Source: an uncultured Acidimicrobiales bacterium (lineage in GTDB: Bacteria; Actinomycetota; Acidimicrobiia; Acidimicrobiales; SZUA-35). Taken from it: DNA of 64,000 bases. The notes under the pieces are model-generated. The model worked only from the letters and a program-made list of their open reading frames with translations. It did no database searches and was not told where the DNA came from. The stretch spans positions 62,001 to 126,000 of the forward strand of contig CALAJQ010000023.1 in NCBI GenBank assembly GCA_937922785.1. Direction: 5' to 3'. Shown here in pieces: positions 2,161-49,956 of this stretch; position 1 is the first letter of the stretch; each line of letters begins with the position of its first letter. Both the position numbers and the translations under genes were made by a program.

Positions 2161-3541
2161 TCATAGTAACAAGTTGGAAGCTGTATTGATAATTGCTTGA
2201 CGAAGACGGCTGACGATCTCGTCAACGTCGTCGCGAGTGATAATCAACGACGGTGACATGATGTTTAGATTCTCAAACGGTCGCACCACAAGACCAAGTT
2301 TCTCCGCCTCGATCGACACAAGCTTTCCGATGCTTACGTCGTCGGCAAATGGCTCTGTGGTCTTCTTGTTGGCCACAAACTCCACACACGCCATCAGATG
2401 AGAGCCGCGAACATCACCCACGATTGACAGATCACCTAACGTTTCGAGTTGGGAAATGAAATAGGGGCCAACATCAGCCACGTTGTCAAATATCTGCTCT
2501 CTTTCCATGATCTCGATGTTCTTTAGAGCAGCGGCGCAAGACACTGGATGACCCGAGTAGGTGAAGCCCATCGCAAAATAGCGGCCATGATCCGGAGCCG
2601 AGATTGTGTCGAAAATCTCATCGGAGAACACAAGCGCCCCCAGTGGCAAGTAGCCCGACGTCAACCCCTTTTGCAGTGGTCATGAGATCAGGCTGAATGC
2701 CAAAGATCGACTCAGACACAAACCATTCGCCAAGCCGACCAAACCCGGTCACGACTTCGTCCGACACATACAGAATGTCGTTTTCCTTACAGATCTTCCA
2801 CATTCGCTGCAGGTAATCGGCTGGCGGCAGTATCACTCCGCCCGAACCCATAATGGGTTCGGCAAAGAACGCAGCAACTTGAGACGGTCCTCCTAGCGAG
2901 GCGATCATTTGCTCGAACTCGGCTACAAGATCATCGGCAAATTCTTGCTCCGAACGGCCGGCTTCGCAGCGAAAGTACTTTGGCGAAGTCAGATGGTGAA
3001 TGCCGTCTTCGATGAACTGGTATCCAGGCGGACGATCACCTTCCTTGCCCCCGATCGAAACCGACGCATAGGTCGAGCCGTGGTAGGCACCGTTTCGGCT
3101 GATGACATGCCTCTTGTCATCCAGCCCTCGGCAATGCTGGTAAAAGTGAATAAGTCGGAAAGCGGCATCTATCGCAGTCGACCCGCCGGTTGTGAAAAAG
3201 ACATGGTTCAGATCTCCAGGAGCAAGTTCGGCTAGCTTTTTTGCTAGCTGAACGGCAGGAACGTTAGTGACATCGACAAATGGGTTTGCATAGGCAAGTT
3301 CTCGCACCTGCGCCGCGATTGCATCTGCCATTTCGTCTCGACCTAGGCCGATGTTTGTGCACCACATGCCTCCAACAGCGTCAATGTATGCGTTGCCGTC
3401 GTTGTCGATAAGGCGAGCGTCAGCGCCCTTCACGATTGGCAGAACAGGGTCGACCAAGTACGAGTCAAAGATCTGATACGGGTGCAACAGATGCCTTCGA
3501 TCATCCGAAACTAACAAATCTGTGGTTACTTGCTCTGCCAT
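2161..3541 (-). pseudogene. Class III (omega) aminotransferase, interrupted by a single-base frameshift
   Basis: PLP-dependent class III aminotransferase of the omega-amino-acid/polyamine:pyruvate type. The N-terminal two thirds (3541 to about 2670) carries the GSTAIDAAFR region and the SDEVVTGFGR cofactor-binding motif, and reaches the TTAKG lysine. The rest (from about 2664 to 2161) continues in another frame with TSGYLPLGALVF. The break is at a G4 run on the coding strand (C4 at 2665-2668). Removing one base joins the two parts as AKG-LTSGYLP, the family consensus. Otherwise the gene is full length (about 460 residues) and undecayed. It is either a very recent inactivation or a one-base sequencing error. 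It lies between two sensor kinases and shows no obvious operon partner. Confidence 0.85.
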
Positions 3542-7122: not shown

Positions 7123-7146
7123 CTGGTCAAAAACCTGGTCAAAAAC
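7123..7146. repeat. Two-copy 12-bp tandem repeat filling a convergent gene junction
   Basis: CTGGTCAAAAAC occurs twice in exact tandem (7123-7134 and 7135-7146). It fills the whole gap between the stop of the short-chain dehydrogenase and the stop codon of the opposing gene, whose first base it includes. The core GGTCAA is shared with the larger array at 11323. Confidence 0.9.
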
Positions 7147-7991
7147 TACGAATAGGCCACTTCATCGATAACGGAGTGAATGGTGTCGGTAAACACGTCT
7201 ATGTCGGGATCCTTGTATACGAAGGCTCCGGCTCCTAGGGCGTGCGCCCGGGCCCGATCATCGTCAGAGGTTGAAGATGTCACGACCGTGACGTTTAAGC
7301 CGTCCACGTCAAACTCTTCCCCCAGGATCTCAAGAAAGTCATGGCCGTCAATCTTGGGCATTCTCAGATCCAGCAGAACAAGGTCAATGTCGTCTTGACC
7401 CCTAGTGCGTAGCAGCTCCACAGCCTCTGATCCGCTGTTAACTACCGACAGGTCAACCCGGCGGTCGGTTTCGGCCAAAGCGTGTTTGACAAGCTGCGCC
7501 TCCTCCTCCGAGTCGTCGATCAGGAGGACGCGAATCGGTCCTTGAACTGGCCGCGGTTTTCGATTCCAATCGCTGTCAAAGACTGGCTTTCCCAGTAGAT
7601 CCTCCACTGGAATCCCAAATCGGCGTCGCAGGCGGTGTGGCAAGTCCATTCCGATCCATCGGCTAAGGCCGGCAGGAAACGTCGACACAATAATGAGGTC
7701 CGGCTTCACTTCGGGCAAAACAGCACGGGTGGCCTCTAAGGGATCGTTGCCACCAACTTTGCCAGCTACTGAAACCCCAATCTGGCGGAATCTCTCCATT
7801 GCGTCAGCCAGTTGCTCGTGAGCACGAGCAGAACCATCTATCTGACCACCGCTGATCGAAGCCACAACTTTGGCCGCTGGAACCAACACAAATACCTTCA
7901 GATCCGGATAGGCGGCGTTTAGCTCGTGTACCCGGGTGGTGACATGGGCGCCTACCTCGGTCTCATCGGTCAGAACTAAGACTGTCTTCAT
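7146..7991 (-). CDS. Universal-stress-like domain fused to an Rcp-like receiver
   Basis: 281 residues. The ATG at 7991 is preceded by GGAGG at good spacing; an in-frame upstream start at 8108 adds an implausible leader. Residues 1-135 form an alpha/beta domain of the actinobacterial universal-stress-like type (VLVLTDETEVGAHV at the start, then the signature STFPAGLSRWIGMDLPHR and RRFGIPVE). Residues ~150-280 are a receiver with the acidic pair IDDS, the phospho-acceptor in LVLLDLRMPKIDGH, and a lysine in VYKDPDID. The architecture and the motif AHALGAGAFVYKDPD recur in the paralogue at 46935. Downstream of a GAF kinase and a receiver on the same strand, it may be part of their pathway. There is no DNA-binding output. 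Confidence 0.88.
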   Translation of the reverse strand: MKTVLVLTDETEVGAHVTTRVHELNAAYPDLKVFVLVPAAKVVASISGGQIDGSARAHEQLADAMERFRQIGVSVAGKVGGNDPLEATRAVLPEVKPDLIIVSTFPAGLSRWIGMDLPHRLRRRFGIPVEDLLGKPVFDSDWNRKPRPVQGPIRVLLIDDSEEEAQLVKHALAETDRRVDLSVVNSGSEAVELLRTRGQDDIDLVLLDLRMPKIDGHDFLEILGEEFDVDGLNVTVVTSSTSDDDRARAHALGAGAFVYKDPDIDVFTDTIHSVIDEVAYS

Positions 7992-8122
7992 CGGTTCGTC
8001 CTCCAGCTTTCGCGGATGGACACAATACTTGTACTTATGACCAAAGCGTCGATGTGGTCTCCATAGGTGGTTTACAAGCGCGCTCTGTGGACACACCATG
8101 GGTGGCATTGTTTGATAGTTGA

Positions 8123-8536
8123 CTAGACGTTCACAAACTCTTCGTCGATTACGCCCACGAACTTGTCAATACCAGATTGCTTCGCCAGATAGCCATGAGC
8201 GCCTAGCTGCGTGGCCTTCTCCATGTCTGCGCCGGCCTCGGAGCTAGTCAGCATGACGATAATCGGGAGATCGATTAGGCCCAGAACAGAGCGGATATGC
8301 TCGAGGGCCTCCAAACCGCTCATGCCAGGCATATTGACGTCCATAAGTACAAGGGACAGACCAATGTGGCCAGACTCATTTCGTGTCGCCAGGTCATCGA
8401 TAAATGATTCCGCTGATGGATAATCGATGACCGTATTCTCGAGATTAGAAATGCCTAGCACGCGTGACATGATCATCCGATCGAGGTCGTCGTCATCGAC
8501 CAATGCAATCTCACCATCACGTGGAATCTGAATCAC
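8123..8536 (-). CDS. Stand-alone receiver domain protein
   Basis: Single-domain response regulator of 137 residues. The GTG start at 8536 directly follows the TAG stop of the GAF kinase (8537-8539), so the pair is translationally coupled and surely cognate. Acidic residues VDDDDLD (13-19), phospho-acceptor Asp66 in LMDVNMPGMSG, Thr97 in MLTSSE and Lys119 in YLAKQ are in place. Nothing follows the receiver, so it acts as a phosphorelay or protein-binding element. It is followed 131 bases later by the stress-like/receiver fusion on the same strand, which may be a further recipient. Confidence 0.92.
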   Translation of the reverse strand: MIQIPRDGEIALVDDDDLDRMIMSRVLGISNLENTVIDYPSAESFIDDLATRNESGHIGLSLVLMDVNMPGMSGLEALEHIRSVLGLIDLPIIVMLTSSEAGADMEKATQLGAHGYLAKQSGIDKFVGVIDEEFVNV

Positions 8537-9712
8537 CTAAATGCCTCTCTTCGGAAGGCTGAGCTGAACCGCAAACGTTTTATCTGAGCAGCTAGCAGAA
8601 GCTGAACCTCCGTGAAGCTGGGCGACGCGTTCAACAATTGCGAGGCCCAGTCCAGTTCCACGGTCATCTGACACCAATCGCTTGAAAGGGGCAAAGATCG
8701 TGTTGTCGACCTCGAATGACTGCTCGACTTCGTTACTTACAGCGATACCAACCTGTTCGTTGTCATCAGTCAGGTCGATGACAACGCTGTCTCCAGAACC
8801 GTACTTATGGGCGTTTTCGAGAAGGTTGACCAATGCTTGGGTCACTAGGAAGGAGTCGCAAACTACTGAGGCGTCTCCTGTGACTCTCACGTCGATTATC
8901 TGTCCGCTTGCCTCATATGCCTCCTTGACCATGGCCGACGCAAGCTGTTCAGAAGCCTCACCCTGCGACAGGCCAGCCAACCTTCCGTAGCCTGAGACCA
9001 ACTCCTCCATCTCAACTGCTGATTCACGCATCGGACCGACCAGTCCACTTGCGGCGCCATCGCTGTCCAGAACAGCCAAATCGGCCAGATTGATCAGTCG
9101 TTTAAGCGGTGCGCGAAGATCGTGTGAGGCCATATAGACATATTGTTCAAGAGCCTGATTCGAGTGTTGAAGCTCGACTGTTTGTTCGCGAAGTTCTTGG
9201 CTGATCCTCGCCTCGACTTCAACGCTCTTGCGAAGATCCAACTCATCTACCGCAACCGATGCCAGATCACGAAGAGCCCCTATTTGCTCGTCGCTGAGGA
9301 CTCTTGGTTGCATATCGAACGCACACAAAGTGCCTAAGCGGATGCCGTCACTCAGTATTAGCGGAGCGCCAGCATAGAACCGAACGTTAGGCATCTCGGC
9401 CACTAGCGGATTATCAGCGAAGCGTTCATCCTCCTGTGCGTCGGGGACCATCATCACTTCGTCGTTGTGAATTGCATGACCACAGAATGAAATGTTGCGC
9501 GGGCTATCGGCGAAATCGACGCCGATCTTGGACTTAAACCAGTTCCGATCTTCGTCTAAGAACGTCATCAGCACAACCGGTGCGTCGATAATGTGAGCCG
9601 CAAGCCGAGTTATGCGGTCAAACACTTCTTCCGGTGCTGTGTCGAGAATCTTGAGATCAAGCAGAGCAGCCATTCTCTCGTTCTCGTTGGCTGGCAGATC
9701 GGGTTCTTTCAT
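8537..9712 (-). CDS. GAF-domain sensor histidine kinase (soluble)
   Basis: 391-residue kinase without membrane helices. I chose the ATG at 9712 (AAAGAGGTG upstream, protein starting MKEPDLPANE); the in-frame extension to 9838 has no family match by eye. A GAF domain (~20-160) has the FCGHAI and FYAGAPL motifs common in actinobacterial and cyanobacterial GAF kinases. A coiled linker (~165-190) leads to HisKA with MASHDLRAPLKR (His197), then HATPase with LLENAHKYG and GTGLGLAIVERV. It would sense a cytoplasmic cue; chromophore-binding cysteines typical of phytochromes were not identified. It forms a two-gene unit with the receiver at 8123. Confidence 0.93.
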   Translation of the reverse strand: MKEPDLPANENERMAALLDLKILDTAPEEVFDRITRLAAHIIDAPVVLMTFLDEDRNWFKSKIGVDFADSPRNISFCGHAIHNDEVMMVPDAQEDERFADNPLVAEMPNVRFYAGAPLILSDGIRLGTLCAFDMQPRVLSDEQIGALRDLASVAVDELDLRKSVEVEARISQELREQTVELQHSNQALEQYVYMASHDLRAPLKRLINLADLAVLDSDGAASGLVGPMRESAVEMEELVSGYGRLAGLSQGEASEQLASAMVKEAYEASGQIIDVRVTGDASVVCDSFLVTQALVNLLENAHKYGSGDSVVIDLTDDNEQVGIAVSNEVEQSFEVDNTIFAPFKRLVSDDRGTGLGLAIVERVAQLHGGSASASCSDKTFAVQLSLPKRGI

Positions 9713-9877
9713 AGCACTAGCACCTCTTTCAAACCATGGGGTTTTTATGCCGCGTGGAGTGTTTACTTGGGGACCGCTCAGAACTTCCGATGCTACGGTA
9801 GCCCGACATCTTGTCGCGACACGCGATATCACCTGCATGGTTGTCTAACCAGATTATTTCAGCTCTCACGGTGGGTC

Positions 9878-9941: not shown

Positions 9942-10640
9942 GTGACTGAACCTACGCAGACAAACCTAACTGAGAAGAAGGACTACGCCCAACAGATTGT
10001 CAACGCGGTATCTCACGACCTTAAGAACCCAACTCGCCAGATCAAGTCGTTCCTTCAAATACTCCAAAGCCACTCCGGTAGCGATATAGACGAGAAAGGC
10101 AAGCACTACTTGGATCTTGTTCTGCAGGCGGCGGACACTATGCAAGTCAAACTCGATGCGTTGACTTTGTTATCGCGTGCGTCCACCGCTGATCTTCAGA
10201 TCGAGCCATGTGACGCTTCGGCTGTTGTCGATGACGCCGTCAGCAGACTTACTCGTCAGATTGCAGATGCCAAGGCTGTGGTAGGTCTCGACGTAACTGG
10301 CAAGGTCTCAGCCGATCACAACCACCTGGTCTCAGTCTTTATGGAGCTAATTGGCAACTCGCTGAAATTCTGCGAGCAGCCTGCCACCATCACAGTTCGT
10401 GGCGAAGTGGTGAATTCAGAATGCGTTTTCAGTCTTTCTGACAGCGGGCCCGGGTTTGGAGCCCGCGATTTCACTGCCCCATTTGATCTCTTTCGCAGAT
10501 TCCACCTTGATGACTATGAAGGCACCGGGACTGGCCTCACCGTGGTGCGCACTCTGTTAGACCGGCATGAGTCCTATCCCACGATCGAATCAAGCCCAGA
10601 TGCGGGAACCACCGTCCGGTTCGCGCTTCCGCTCGCCTAG
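9942..10640 (+). CDS. Small soluble histidine kinase without sensor domain
   Basis: 232 residues consisting only of a HisKA helix pair (AVSHDLKNPTRQ, His25) and a HATPase domain (ELIGNSLKF, DSGPGFG, GTGTGLTVV). The start is GTG at 9942 with GGAG upstream. With no sensor region it must receive its input from a partner, plausibly one of the adjacent stand-alone receivers, as in multi-component phosphorelays. The HATPase is slightly degenerate: the usual Asn-rich box reads NSLKF and the DxGxG box is DSGPG, both still compatible with ATP binding. It is divergent from the GAF kinase and abuts the stop codon of the convergent uracil phosphoribosyltransferase. Confidence 0.88.
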   Translation: MTEPTQTNLTEKKDYAQQIVNAVSHDLKNPTRQIKSFLQILQSHSGSDIDEKGKHYLDLVLQAADTMQVKLDALTLLSRASTADLQIEPCDASAVVDDAVSRLTRQIADAKAVVGLDVTGKVSADHNHLVSVFMELIGNSLKFCEQPATITVRGEVVNSECVFSLSDSGPGFGARDFTAPFDLFRRFHLDDYEGTGTGLTVVRTLLDRHESYPTIESSPDAGTTVRFALPLA

Positions 10641-45988: not shown

Positions 45989-46747
45989 CTAGAAGACTGT
46001 GTAGCCACCGTCTACCACCACCTCCTGGCCTGTGTGGTAGCTAAGTTCCGGGTTTGCCAGAAATGGCCCGACGTGCTCAAAATCGCCGGGCGTGCCCCAA
46101 CGTCGTACCGGAGTTCGGCGAGTCGTGGCCGTCATGAACTTCTCATTCTCCGATGCGCCAGCAGTCATGTCTGTTGTTACCCAACCAGGAATCAACGCGT
46201 TAACACGAATCTGATGACGGGCCAATCCGACCGCCAGTGCCCGGACCAGTCCCAGAACTGCGGTTTTGGATGTTCCGTAGGCCTCGTTGCCAGCCGCCCC
46301 ATGGATGGCCGAAGTTGAAGAAACCCCCACGATTGATCCACCCGTACCTTGAGCAACCATCTGGCGTGCTGCTGCTTGCACGCAAAGAAAGAGCCCATCG
46401 AGATTCACCGACATCACTTGACGCCACTCGGCCAGGCCCAGCTCTAAGAACGGGGTTCCGTGGCCACCTCGTCCAGCGTTGGCAAAGAACGAGTCAATGT
46501 GACCCATCTGTTCTACGGTCGCCGCCATCGCTTGGTCAATCTGTTCTGGGTCAGAAACGTCGCAAATCACGGCTTGGGCGTTTACCCCAAGACCGCGAAG
46601 CTTCGATACGGCTGTGTTGTTCTTGTCGCCATTGCGGCCCCAAATCATGATGTCACCTCCAGCGGAGGCAATACCCGTGGCCAGCCCGAGGCCGATTCCA
46701 CCGTTGCCTCCGGTTATGACCGCGACATGTCCATTCAAAGTTCCCAT
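45989..46747 (-). CDS. Short-chain dehydrogenase/reductase
   Basis: 252-residue classical SDR, with TGGNGGIGLGLA for cofactor binding, FFANAGRGG (NAG), VSSTSA and YGTSK for catalysis, and IPGWVTTDMT and GQEVVVDGGYTVF at the end. The last motif is typical of FabG-like enzymes. No substrate clue. It lies between convergent genes on both sides and is divergent from the stress-like/receiver fusion, with a 187-base promoter gap. A third SDR of this window (others at 6232 and 37710). Confidence 0.92.
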   Translation of the reverse strand: MGTLNGHVAVITGGNGGIGLGLATGIASAGGDIMIWGRNGDKNNTAVSKLRGLGVNAQAVICDVSDPEQIDQAMAATVEQMGHIDSFFANAGRGGHGTPFLELGLAEWRQVMSVNLDGLFLCVQAAARQMVAQGTGGSIVGVSSTSAIHGAAGNEAYGTSKTAVLGLVRALAVGLARHQIRVNALIPGWVTTDMTAGASENEKFMTATTRRTPVRRWGTPGDFEHVGPFLANPELSYHTGQEVVVDGGYTVF

Positions 46748-46934: not shown

Positions 46935-47825
46935 ATGAGACTGCTAGTAGTTGCAAACGAAACAATAATCGGGCCTCATATCGCTGAATACGTGCAGGAC
47001 CTCAACAGTCAAGGCGAGGAGGTTGACGTTTACCTTCTTGTGCCGGCCACCCCACTTGCGTCTTCACCAGGGTCACCTAGCCCTACGCTGCTCGACGCTT
47101 CGGGCGCTCGACGAGCAGGTCGACAGCTGGCCTCGGCAATCAAATTGCTTGAGAAGAGCAACGTTCCCGTTGCTGGCGAAGTAGGTGTCAGAGACCCGAT
47201 GGCCGCAGTCGATCTAGTCATGATGCGCCGTGAATTCGACCGCATCTTAGTTTCAACCGTGTCTGCTGGAACGAGCCGCTGGTTCAAGATGGACCTCCAG
47301 CATCGGCTTCAACGACGCTACGGCATCCCGGTGGACCACGTATTTAGTGACTGCATAGACAGCTGGGAACCAACCGTGGCGCCCGACGGGACCCGGCGGA
47401 TGCTGATAATCGACGATAGTCCGGCCGATGTGGATCTTGTTACAGAAGCGCTGAACAGCAGCACCGAGTTCGACTTGGAGATGAAAATCGTCATGAACGG
47501 GGCAGCAGCTCTTGACTACATCCGCGAAATCGGGCCTGACGGCGTAGACCTAATTCTTCTGGACCTCAAGATGCCGCTGCTTGACGGCCACGGATTCATG
47601 GAAGGTGTGTCGGAGGAGTTTGACATCGACCAGCTAAACATCGTGGTGGTGACAACTTCTGACGCGCCAAATGATCGCGAGCGGGCCCATGCTCTAGGAG
47701 CTGGCGCATACCTTCTCAAGGATCCAGATTTTGACGTCTTCTCCGAAGGCCTGCTTTCTCTGGTCAACGAGTATGCGGGTCTCGACAAGCTACCTAACGC
47801 AGAGAACGAGCTAGTCCCTCACTAA
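46935..47825 (+). CDS. Universal-stress-like domain fused to an Rcp-like receiver (paralogue of the 7146 gene)
   Basis: 296 residues with the same two-domain plan as the gene at 7146. The N-terminal stress-like domain has VVANETIIGPHIAEYV and STVSAGTSRWFKMDLQHR followed by RRYGIPVDHV. The receiver (~155-285) has IDDSPADVDL, the phospho-acceptor in LILLDLKMPLLDGH, TTSDAPND and AHALGAGAYLLKDPDFD. The last motif is nearly identical to AHALGAGAFVYKDPDID of the paralogue. The 3' end overlaps the convergent SulP gene by 32 bases. There is no adjacent kinase, so one in the 3.7-10.6 kb island may serve both. Confidence 0.88.
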   Translation: MRLLVVANETIIGPHIAEYVQDLNSQGEEVDVYLLVPATPLASSPGSPSPTLLDASGARRAGRQLASAIKLLEKSNVPVAGEVGVRDPMAAVDLVMMRREFDRILVSTVSAGTSRWFKMDLQHRLQRRYGIPVDHVFSDCIDSWEPTVAPDGTRRMLIIDDSPADVDLVTEALNSSTEFDLEMKIVMNGAAALDYIREIGPDGVDLILLDLKMPLLDGHGFMEGVSEEFDIDQLNIVVVTTSDAPNDRERAHALGAGAYLLKDPDFDVFSEGLLSLVNEYAGLDKLPNAENELVPH

Positions 47826-49956
47826 TTGAAGTGATTCGACCAGCCTGGCCTTTGAGCATGTAGCTCTGAAGCTCTATTACGAGCTTCGGTCGCTCTTCAA
47901 GAAGTTCCTCATACCGTGCCCGCGTTAGCGCGACCGCAACGACAGGCGTGTCAGCAGTGACTTGGGCTGTCCGTTCTCCACCAGTAATGAATCCGATCTC
48001 CCCAACAAGGGCGCCAATACCGAAACGCCTCAGCCGATGACCAACGCCGTCGCCGTCAAAGCGAGTAGCGGTCAAGTAGCCGCTGCGAACGATCAGGAGT
48101 TCATCACTAGATGCCCCTTGGGTCATCAAAACGTGTCCTTCTGAAAACTCCGCACTTGTGAACTCGGCCAGCAGATCCTCCGATAGCCCCAGTTGGTCCA
48201 GAGACAAGGGCTTGTCTTCAGCTGACCAGCGGGTCAGCTGGCTCCGCTCAGCGTGTTCAAGCGCTGCATCCAAATTCGGCGCCCAGGAGACTTTGGACAT
48301 CTCGATGGGTTCAGATTCTTTAAGCGACTCTCGAAGCTCAGCACCCATGTGGGCTATGACGAAGTCGTTACCCCGTTCGGTGATCTGGTCAGTAACTCTG
48401 GCCAGAAGCTCATAGGCAGATGAGTCAATTCCAGTCACGTTTCTGAAGTCGAATATGACAGCGTCATGACCATCGCTGGCCGAGGTGCGGTCCAGGAAGC
48501 CTCTGACCCGATCGTCCAGTGACGTAAGCGAGCCGAAGAACAAGTACCCCTGCAGTTGAAACGCCTTAATGCGGTCAGCGTTGGCAAGCAAGTAAGCCGT
48601 TTGATCCGGAGAATAGTCAACCCGGCTTCGATAATCGGTGCCGCTTCCAGAACGCTTTACGGGATCGATGCGACTGTAGCGAACCACAAACACCGCACAC
48701 GCTGCGATTATGCCCACGCCGATTCCCTGGAGGATTCCCACAAACGCAATAACCAGCACAATTGCGACGCTCATTGCGTTCTCTAATGGATGTATCGACT
48801 TAACAAGCGTCTGAACCCAGTCGACCAGCAAAGCCAATCCCACGCTTATTAGTAAGGCTCCCACAACTAGACGAGGCATGTACCCGGCAATAACTAACCC
48901 AAAGACTCCAAAACCCAAGGTTGCCACAGCAGCCAACACCGGCATTAAGCGAGTTCTCGCGCCAAGCCGGGAAGCCAGCACGCTGTCGCCCAAGGCATGA
49001 AAGGCAGGTAGAGCTCCGAGCGGCGATAGCACCACATTGACCAGTCCGGTTTCGCGAAGCTCGGTGTCAACCTCAATTCGTTCCTTGCCGACAAACTCCA
49101 AACCAGTGACGTTCAGCAACAGGGCAATCACGGCCACTGCCACGACTCCCCCAACGCTGGGAAGCGTTGGTAACAACTGTTCCCAGTTGGCGTTTACTAC
49201 CGATGAAGGAGACACAACTGAGAATTCGTTCCCACCGGGGAAAGGCCCAATCAGCCATCCTCCGGCCTCAACCGCGTCAATCGATGACCAGATTCCGACA
49301 ACAGCAAAAAAGCATGCGATCGAGCCAAGAATGGCAAGGCTCATAAGCAGCGGCGGGACGCTGTTCAGATGACCCAAGAGCCAAATAAGGATGCCCAAGC
49401 CCAACCCTGGGACCCAGAACTTCAAGATGTCAGCGTCGAACAATCGTGAGACGTCTCCTAGCTCAACTCCAAAGCCAACCATGACGTCAAGGCCGCCCTT
49501 CACCAGGAGCCAACCTGTTCCGGCGATAAACGCCGTCACTACTGTGTTGGGTATGTACCGCACCAAATGACCGAGACCGAATTGCCCCATGACCAACATG
49601 ATGACGCCGGTAACGATGGTGGCTATCGCTATCAACACGAACACGTGGTCAACTGAGTCTTTGTTGGCGTCGCCAGCAACTCCCGCAGCGACCGCCACCA
49701 TTACCACTGCGGGACCATCTTGCACGAGGGCGGCAAGCGGTACGATCTGGCTTCTTAGGCCCAAATATCCAATCGCAACTGCTCCGGCGATAACAAACGC
49801 TGTGACTGCTCGCGGTAGCCCCCCAGACAATGAGCCTGAGAAGACCAGCGCCGCCATCGAAATCGACATCGATATCGAACCGACGGCCATGGCAATCGCT
49901 GCAAGCGTCTCAACTAGAAGGCTCTTGTTATCGGACTGCCCGGACTGATCATTCAA
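47794..49956 (-). CDS. SulP anion transporter with STAS and cyclic-nucleotide-binding domains
   Basis: 720 residues: SulP/SLC26-like membrane region (~10-410, with about 12 helices, e.g. VRYIPNTVVTAFIAGTGWLL and GLEFVGKERIEVDTELRETG), STAS domain (~440-560, VIFDFRNVTGIDSSAYELL with the strand-helix of anti-sigma antagonists), then a cNMP-binding domain (~590-700, VLMTQGASSDELLIVRSG and GALVGEIGFITGGERTAQV). SulP carriers move sulfate, bicarbonate or related anions. The terminal cNMP domain suggests direct control by cAMP or cGMP. The gene converges with the stress-like/receiver fusion. Confidence 0.92.
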   Translation of the reverse strand: MNDQSGQSDNKSLLVETLAAIAMAVGSISMSISMAALVFSGSLSGGLPRAVTAFVIAGAVAIGYLGLRSQIVPLAALVQDGPAVVMVAVAAGVAGDANKDSVDHVFVLIAIATIVTGVIMLVMGQFGLGHLVRYIPNTVVTAFIAGTGWLLVKGGLDVMVGFGVELGDVSRLFDADILKFWVPGLGLGILIWLLGHLNSVPPLLMSLAILGSIACFFAVVGIWSSIDAVEAGGWLIGPFPGGNEFSVVSPSSVVNANWEQLLPTLPSVGGVVAVAVIALLLNVTGLEFVGKERIEVDTELRETGLVNVVLSPLGALPAFHALGDSVLASRLGARTRLMPVLAAVATLGFGVFGLVIAGYMPRLVVGALLISVGLALLVDWVQTLVKSIHPLENAMSVAIVLVIAFVGILQGIGVGIIAACAVFVVRYSRIDPVKRSGSGTDYRSRVDYSPDQTAYLLANADRIKAFQLQGYLFFGSLTSLDDRVRGFLDRTSASDGHDAVIFDFRNVTGIDSSAYELLARVTDQITERGNDFVIAHMGAELRESLKESEPIEMSKVSWAPNLDAALEHAERSQLTRWSAEDKPLSLDQLGLSEDLLAEFTSAEFSEGHVLMTQGASSDELLIVRSGYLTATRFDGDGVGHRLRRFGIGALVGEIGFITGGERTAQVTADTPVVAVALTRARYEELLEERPKLVIELQSYMLKGQAGRITSISEGLARSLR

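Follow-up and report, generated by a model that had tools for sequence, protein, structure and literature searches.

Receivers of the Rcp type normally act without an attached output. In the solved examples, which include Rcp1, RcpA and the DrBphP response regulator (6XVU), the receiver stands alone, whereas in the proteins described here a receiver of this type forms the C-terminal half of a fusion. On domains that are attached to receivers, the available part of a census of archaeal two-component systems describes them as either input or output, and finds fusions of receivers to enzymatic domains to be typically narrowly distributed (PMC5847659). A further parallel is KdpD, which, according to the portion of PMC8214093 available, is likewise a two-component protein carrying a Usp-superfamily domain without a Walker-type motif; KdpD is, however, a kinase, whereas the fusions are predicted regulators. 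The N-terminal domain of the fusions has one close solved relative, TT0030 of Thermus thermophilus (PDB 2IEL), a 138-aa chain that is titled hypothetical protein and has no receiver. Our literature search found no paper on TT0030, and 2IEL is not named in the part of PMC3673472 available.

The window analysed here is a stretch of 64,000 nucleotides from the genome of an uncultured Acidimicrobiales bacterium, and it holds two copies of such a fusion gene, with the following features:

7146-7991, minus strand: fusion copy 1 (P0001), 281 aa
7593-7991, minus strand: TT0030-like Usp-superfamily N-terminal domain of copy 1, residues 1-133
7641-7685, minus strand: conserved STx5SRWx3DL stretch of copy 1, residues 103-117, at about the position of the Usp ATP motif
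7149-7535, minus strand: receiver of copy 1, residues 153-281, with predicted phospho-acceptor D208 at 7368-7370
46935-47825, plus strand: fusion copy 2 (P0002), 296 aa, with no kinase-like frame found nearby
46935-47357, plus strand: TT0030-like N-terminal domain of copy 2
47394-47783, plus strand: receiver of copy 2, with predicted phospho-acceptor D210 at 47562-47564

Architecture of the two fusion proteins

Both genes were found to be open over the spans 7146-7991 and 46935-47825 that the original prediction had given them, and the paralogy it proposed is upheld by 43% identity from end to end over 282 columns, with an E-value (8e-73) that rules out a chance likeness. Copy 1 most likely starts at 7991, with GGAGG lying 8 nt upstream; a longer open frame begins at 8108. 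The bacterium's own genome (4.9 Mb, 95.7% complete) gave 33 matches at E <= 10, of which only these two are full-length copies.

The C-terminal half of each protein matches the Pfam receiver family PF00072 well above the cut-off of 30.2 bits (63.6 bits, E 2.3e-17 for copy 1; 54.7 bits, E 1.3e-14 for copy 2), and no third family passes its Pfam cut-off in either protein. The receiver catalytic residues are complete in both (D159, D160, D208, T238 and K260 in copy 1 numbering), and on the strength of this score and these residues both proteins are, by sequence, response regulators for which phosphorylation by a histidine kinase is predicted. The same residues are retained across the 12 fusions that could be aligned: all have the phospho-acceptor D208 and the acidic pair, the second residue of which is Asp in nine and Glu in three (the f121 members), while T238 is Thr in 11 and Ser in one (L180), and K260 is found in 11, the frame of the twelfth, again L180, being broken off upstream of the Lys codon. 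By both sequence and model the closest solved structures are phytochrome response regulators, with 6XVU (E 1.9e-14 by sequence; from the model, Z 19.9 and rmsd 1.6 over 130 residues at 32% identity) just ahead of Rcp1 and RcpA. The two-domain plan with an Rcp-like C-terminal receiver was correctly read in both copies, and the motifs SRWxxMDLxHR and RRxGIPV assigned to the N-terminal half also occur in both. Of the receiver signature, AHALGAGA is identical as claimed, but one residue separates GHDF from GHGF.

The N-terminal domain matches 2IEL with E 9.6e-9 when a single sequence is searched by phmmer and with E 2.6e-26 when a profile of 47 members is used, and its model matches the same structure in Foldseek (E 1.3e-6, TM by target 0.75). 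Membership of a TT0030-like family is indicated by similarity over the full length together with the SRW and DL stretch, which the domain and TT0030 have in common. The AlphaFold2 model of the whole of copy 1 (mean pLDDT 77.9, pTM 0.54) places strands and helices of this half in the order b-a-b-a-b-a-b-a-b, which fits the alpha/beta order of Usp proteins; the VIA structure list for the whole model contains receiver matches only and none for the N-terminal domain, since receivers fill the list.

Links to Usp proteins proper are more distant. Copy 1 scores 22.4 bits against PF00582, below the cut-off of 24, and copy 2 gives no match; E-values of 0.01 or lower are reached by 8 of the 47 N-domain members (best 4.8e-6), and PF00582 has 11 matches at E 0.01 in the own genome, neither fusion among them. 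The 47-member profile reaches UspF at 7.5e-4 and MJ0577 at 0.12, and hhalign against nine Usp domains from the same bacterium gave a probability of 60 and E 8.5e-5, a match that covers the first 113 columns only and leaves the motif loop outside. No NCBIfam family came near its cut-off for the N-terminal domains, and the full proteins hit receiver families. Given the 2IEL match, these remote links and the lack of the Usp ATP motif discussed below, we take the domain to be a TT0030-like, remote branch of the Usp superfamily and not a Usp protein. The earlier description of it as a stress-like domain thus stands at the level of the superfamily and fails for canonical Usp, and its description as actinobacterial is too narrow, since the closest solved relative is from Thermus. 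Residue 9 of P0001 is Asp, as in the orthologues L049 and L050, whereas most family members have Asn there (ANQT); Usp proteins usually carry an Asp after strand 1.

Gene neighbourhood and candidate kinases

Copy 1 closes a same-strand run in which it follows a GAF-containing kinase-like protein and a receiver, with a further kinase gene diverging from the run:

8123-8536, minus strand: single-domain receiver, cassette member
8537-9838, minus strand: GAF-HisKA-HATPase kinase-like protein, cassette member, G1 box lost
9942-10640, plus strand: small HisKA-HATPase kinase, transcribed away from the cassette, whose G1 box is intact

The predicted placement of copy 1 beside a GAF kinase and a receiver is confirmed, and the trio recurs in two genomes of one other genus (G305 and G323), there in the order fusion, GAF protein, receiver, with 4-nt overlaps between successive genes. 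Counting the window, three genomes from two genera thus retain the cassette, although not in the same gene order. In G305 and G323 respectively, the GAF proteins are 63% and 59% identical to that of the window, the similarity of which to its relatives starts at residue 43 (9712), and the cassette receivers are 53% and 41% identical; G305 also has a homologue of the small kinase (41% identical), likewise divergent beside the cassette.

The HATPase G1 box, DxGxG, is present in the six other kinases aligned, and in the GAF orthologues it reads SNEVEQ, SNPVKA and RNRVDQ, with the Asp and the glycines gone in all three, while the phospho-acceptor His, the N box and the G2 box are kept. The three GAF-HisKA-HATPase proteins that have lost the box are encoded at 8537-9838 of the window, at L175:8434-9612 and at L176:4689-5861. 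Since the G1 box is lost in every aligned orthologue, simple phosphotransfer from the GAF protein to the fusion seems doubtful, and this protein may instead have weak kinase activity, act as a phosphatase or work together with the small kinase. Elsewhere in the window, at 2161-3541 on the minus strand, two overlapping frames (2161-2664 and 2618-3541), aminotransferase-like by eye, look like one gene broken by a frame change, whether real or an assembly error.

For copy 2, a tandem Usp gene and a carrier had been named as neighbours, and both are indeed nearby, although an SDR-like gene (by eye; 45989-46747, in the opposite orientation) separates copy 2 from the tandem Usp gene. The carrier gene (47794-49956, minus strand), SulP-STAS-cNMP-like by eye, converges on copy 2 and overlaps it by 32 nt (47794-47825).

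In two further genomes, G307 and G328, the gene immediately after the fusion (28 nt away in G307) encodes a HAMP-HisKA-HATPase kinase with a sub-cut-off dCache match. No second receiver was detected by profile in the stretches read from these genomes, which leaves the fusion as the one receiver found beside the kinase; a Crp-like gene, Pfam-tested in G328, lies upstream of the fusion in both. G393 carries a broken fusion that is transcribed away from a kinase gene. Altogether, a kinase lies beside the fusion or in the same run at 6 of the 13 fusion loci read (copy 1, L175, L176, L180, L182 and L183), which amounts to about three independent cases, and none lies next to it at the other seven, namely copy 2, three of the seven f121 loci, L078, L184 (the same as L079) and L181. 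L078, L184 and L181 are on short contigs, and the remaining four f121 loci were outside the loci read. Genes were called with a simple script based on codon scores; in L182 it placed the start of the kinase frame too early and so missed the fusion frame, but this fusion was seen elsewhere in the analysis.

Proposed mechanism and direction of control

The reading we prefer, with a probability of roughly 0.5, is that of a response regulator whose phosphorylated receiver alters what the stress-like domain binds. In the following scheme the architecture, the receiver residues, the common grouping of the fusions, the conserved motif and, in some lineages, the nearby kinases are taken from the sequences, and phosphorylation, the direction of control and any ligand are what we infer. 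Each gene product, in which a TT0030-like Usp-superfamily domain precedes the C-terminal receiver of Rcp type, would be a response regulator. Its receiver Asp, D208 in copy 1, would be phosphorylated by a histidine kinase that several relatives encode next door. The resulting change in the receiver would then act on the stress-like domain, through its dimer state or through access to the STx5SRWx3DL surface, which would stand in for the Usp ATP loop, and the output would be a changed binding of a ligand or partner and not of DNA. For copy 1, the GAF protein may serve mainly as a phosphatase or regulator, with the neighbouring small kinase supplying the phosphate. The intact receiver residues, the cassette shared across genera and the kinases adjoining some fusions speak for this reading; the seven loci that lack such a kinase, the lost G1 box and the low-confidence motif loop of the model speak against it.

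The reverse arrangement is a possible but less probable one, in which the N-terminal domain is an input that binds a small molecule, such as a nucleotide or second messenger, and gates receiver phosphorylation or the choice of partner, so that the working end would be the receiver, which next to the other receiver of the cassette would serve as an adaptor or phosphate sink. The Usp domain of KdpD binds c-di-AMP without a Walker-type motif, as described in the part of PMC8214093 available, a gene of the DAC (c-di-AMP synthase) family is present in the own genome, the cassette combines two receivers with one kinase-like protein, and domains attached to receivers may be inputs, as the accessible text of PMC5847659 has it. 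Yet the KdpD-type c-di-AMP motif, (A/G/C)XSXSX2N(Y/F), is found in none of the 47 N-terminal domains, and a KdpD-like c-di-AMP site was rejected on this ground. Moreover, the fusion being the only receiver found beside the kinase in G307 and G328 suits a regulator with an output, and for this reason the direction of control leans, as far as the gene neighbourhood can indicate, towards the receiver controlling the stress-like domain.

Conserved motif of the N-terminal domain

The ATP motif of UspFG-type proteins, GX2GX9G(S/T), occurs in 0 of the 47 N-terminal domains, also when spacings of 8-10 are allowed, while the tandem Usp protein of the window has it in both domains; a canonical ATP-binding Usp was accordingly rejected as an identity for the N-terminal domain. 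Its absence excludes one Usp subtype only, since members of the UspA type bind no ATP either (PMC8214093, available part). At about the place of this motif the family has the stretch STx5SRWx3DL, which is strict in 35 of the 47 domains, a set that includes fusions, and in 12 of the 12 aligned fusions. Sixteen positions are invariant or nearly so in the 47 members, and seven of these (S103, T104, S110, R111, W112, D116 and L117) fall in the loop near the Usp ligand position. Residues 107-115 of this loop have a pLDDT under 50, so that the model gives no geometry for it.

That the N-terminal domain is a dimerisation scaffold only, with no ligand of its own and a receiver that signals by itself, we regard as unlikely: the missing ATP motif in all 47 members and the habit of Rcp-like receivers of working without an output both count for it, but 7 of 16 conserved positions in one loop are more than a scaffold needs. 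Strict retention of the motif in the aligned fusions speaks for a receiver that controls the stress-like domain but does not demonstrate such control, since the motif is well kept in unfused members too.

Origin and distribution of the fusion

The original prediction had held this architecture to be rarely noted, and its rarity is supported at each level sampled. The receiver fusion is found in 5 of 39 genomes and 4 of 11 genera of the own family, and in 10 of 397 genomes of the order, in three families (f1, f121 and f85), one of the ten having an internal stop. In the class, the own genome is alone among 395 at E 1e-45. In a phylum sample, 2 of 396 genomes pass the cut-off, these being the own genome and G149, which has the N-terminal domain alone, leaving the fusion in 1 of 396; in a second sample of 296, searched with one protein as query, the only full-length match is again in the own genome. 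The searches of the order, class and phylum (397, 395, 396 and 296 genomes) scored 6 to 8 candidates per genome, so that they may have missed some fusions. Within the samples searched, from family to phylum, a common architecture was rejected. A contig scan found the N-terminal domain in 3 of the best 80 loci listed (L078-L080, from one Acidimicrobiia MAG), and at L143 the match reaches into the N-terminal half, yet the domain is absent; no relative was found on viral contigs. This patchy spread resembles the narrow distributions reported in the part of the archaeal census available (PMC5847659).

In a maximum-likelihood tree of 57 N-terminal domains, the 16 that are fused to receivers form one side of a branch (support 97/91), as they do in 99% of 200 bootstrap trees, and shuffled labels require a mean of 14.2 changes. 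The tree was built after removal of duplicates of the same domain sequence, of genes fetched more than once and of domain hits with E-values above 1e-20; it is rooted at the midpoint, and L174 and two others form long branches. Since the fused domains lie on one side of a branch, a single join with the receiver is the most likely history, provided that the root is outside this group, and several independent fusions were rejected on the same grouping. A chance join of two domains that work independently and uncoupled is very improbable, for although a single join with patchy spread would fit a neutral fusion in a few lineages, nearly all key residues are kept in both halves, in three bacterial families and after duplication.

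Other partners of the N-terminal domain

The N-terminal domain family, which was sampled widely in the phylum, gave 50 matches in 30 genomes among 99 relatives; in the own genome the domain occurs only within the two fusions. Elsewhere it forms proteins of about 145 aa by itself, or is joined to other domains. It follows a dodecin domain (PF07311) in L053 (E 4.9e-16) and L075 (E 1.2e-16) and precedes one in L061 (E 6.2e-23), the joins with dodecin being L053, L056, L058, L059, L061-L065, L073, L075, L226, L228 and L229, in which the N-terminal domain mostly comes second and the order is reversed once (L061). The dodecin labels are from Pfam for L053, L061 and L075, by eye for L056, and from phmmer for the rest, or their refetched copies. 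These joins take five changes on the tree, a number that depends on labels from open frames, and our literature search found no description of a dodecin/TT0030-like join. The domain also stands at the end of CLC-CBS chloride channel proteins (L055 and L068 by Pfam, L067 and L070 by eye). A C2H2-like stretch, CPRCELRF...H, was seen by eye before the domain at L057:1462-2118 and L227:1132-1857, both on the minus strand; no Pfam match was obtained for L057.

We tentatively raise the idea, at lower odds than the regulator proposed above, that the TT0030-like domain is an unrecognised and widely shuffled regulatory module that binds a common ligand, in which case the receiver fusions would read phosphorylation and ligand in one chain and represent a novel kind of output or input for response regulators.

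Significance

No paper on a fusion of a stress-like domain to a receiver was found by title or abstract, in a search that mostly left subscription papers outside, and word searches of the accessible text of PMC4558063, PMC10519070, PMC10003552, PMC8534201 and PMC3403918 led nowhere on the fusion. Within the literature searched by title or abstract, no response regulator carrying this partner domain is described, and the fusion would add the domain to the known response-regulator architectures. It would also give a large family of stress-protein-like domains a genetic context linked to kinases. Since the domain is joined to dodecin and chloride channels as well as to receivers, its ligand would bear on several types of protein, and the three-gene cassette makes the question of that ligand testable.
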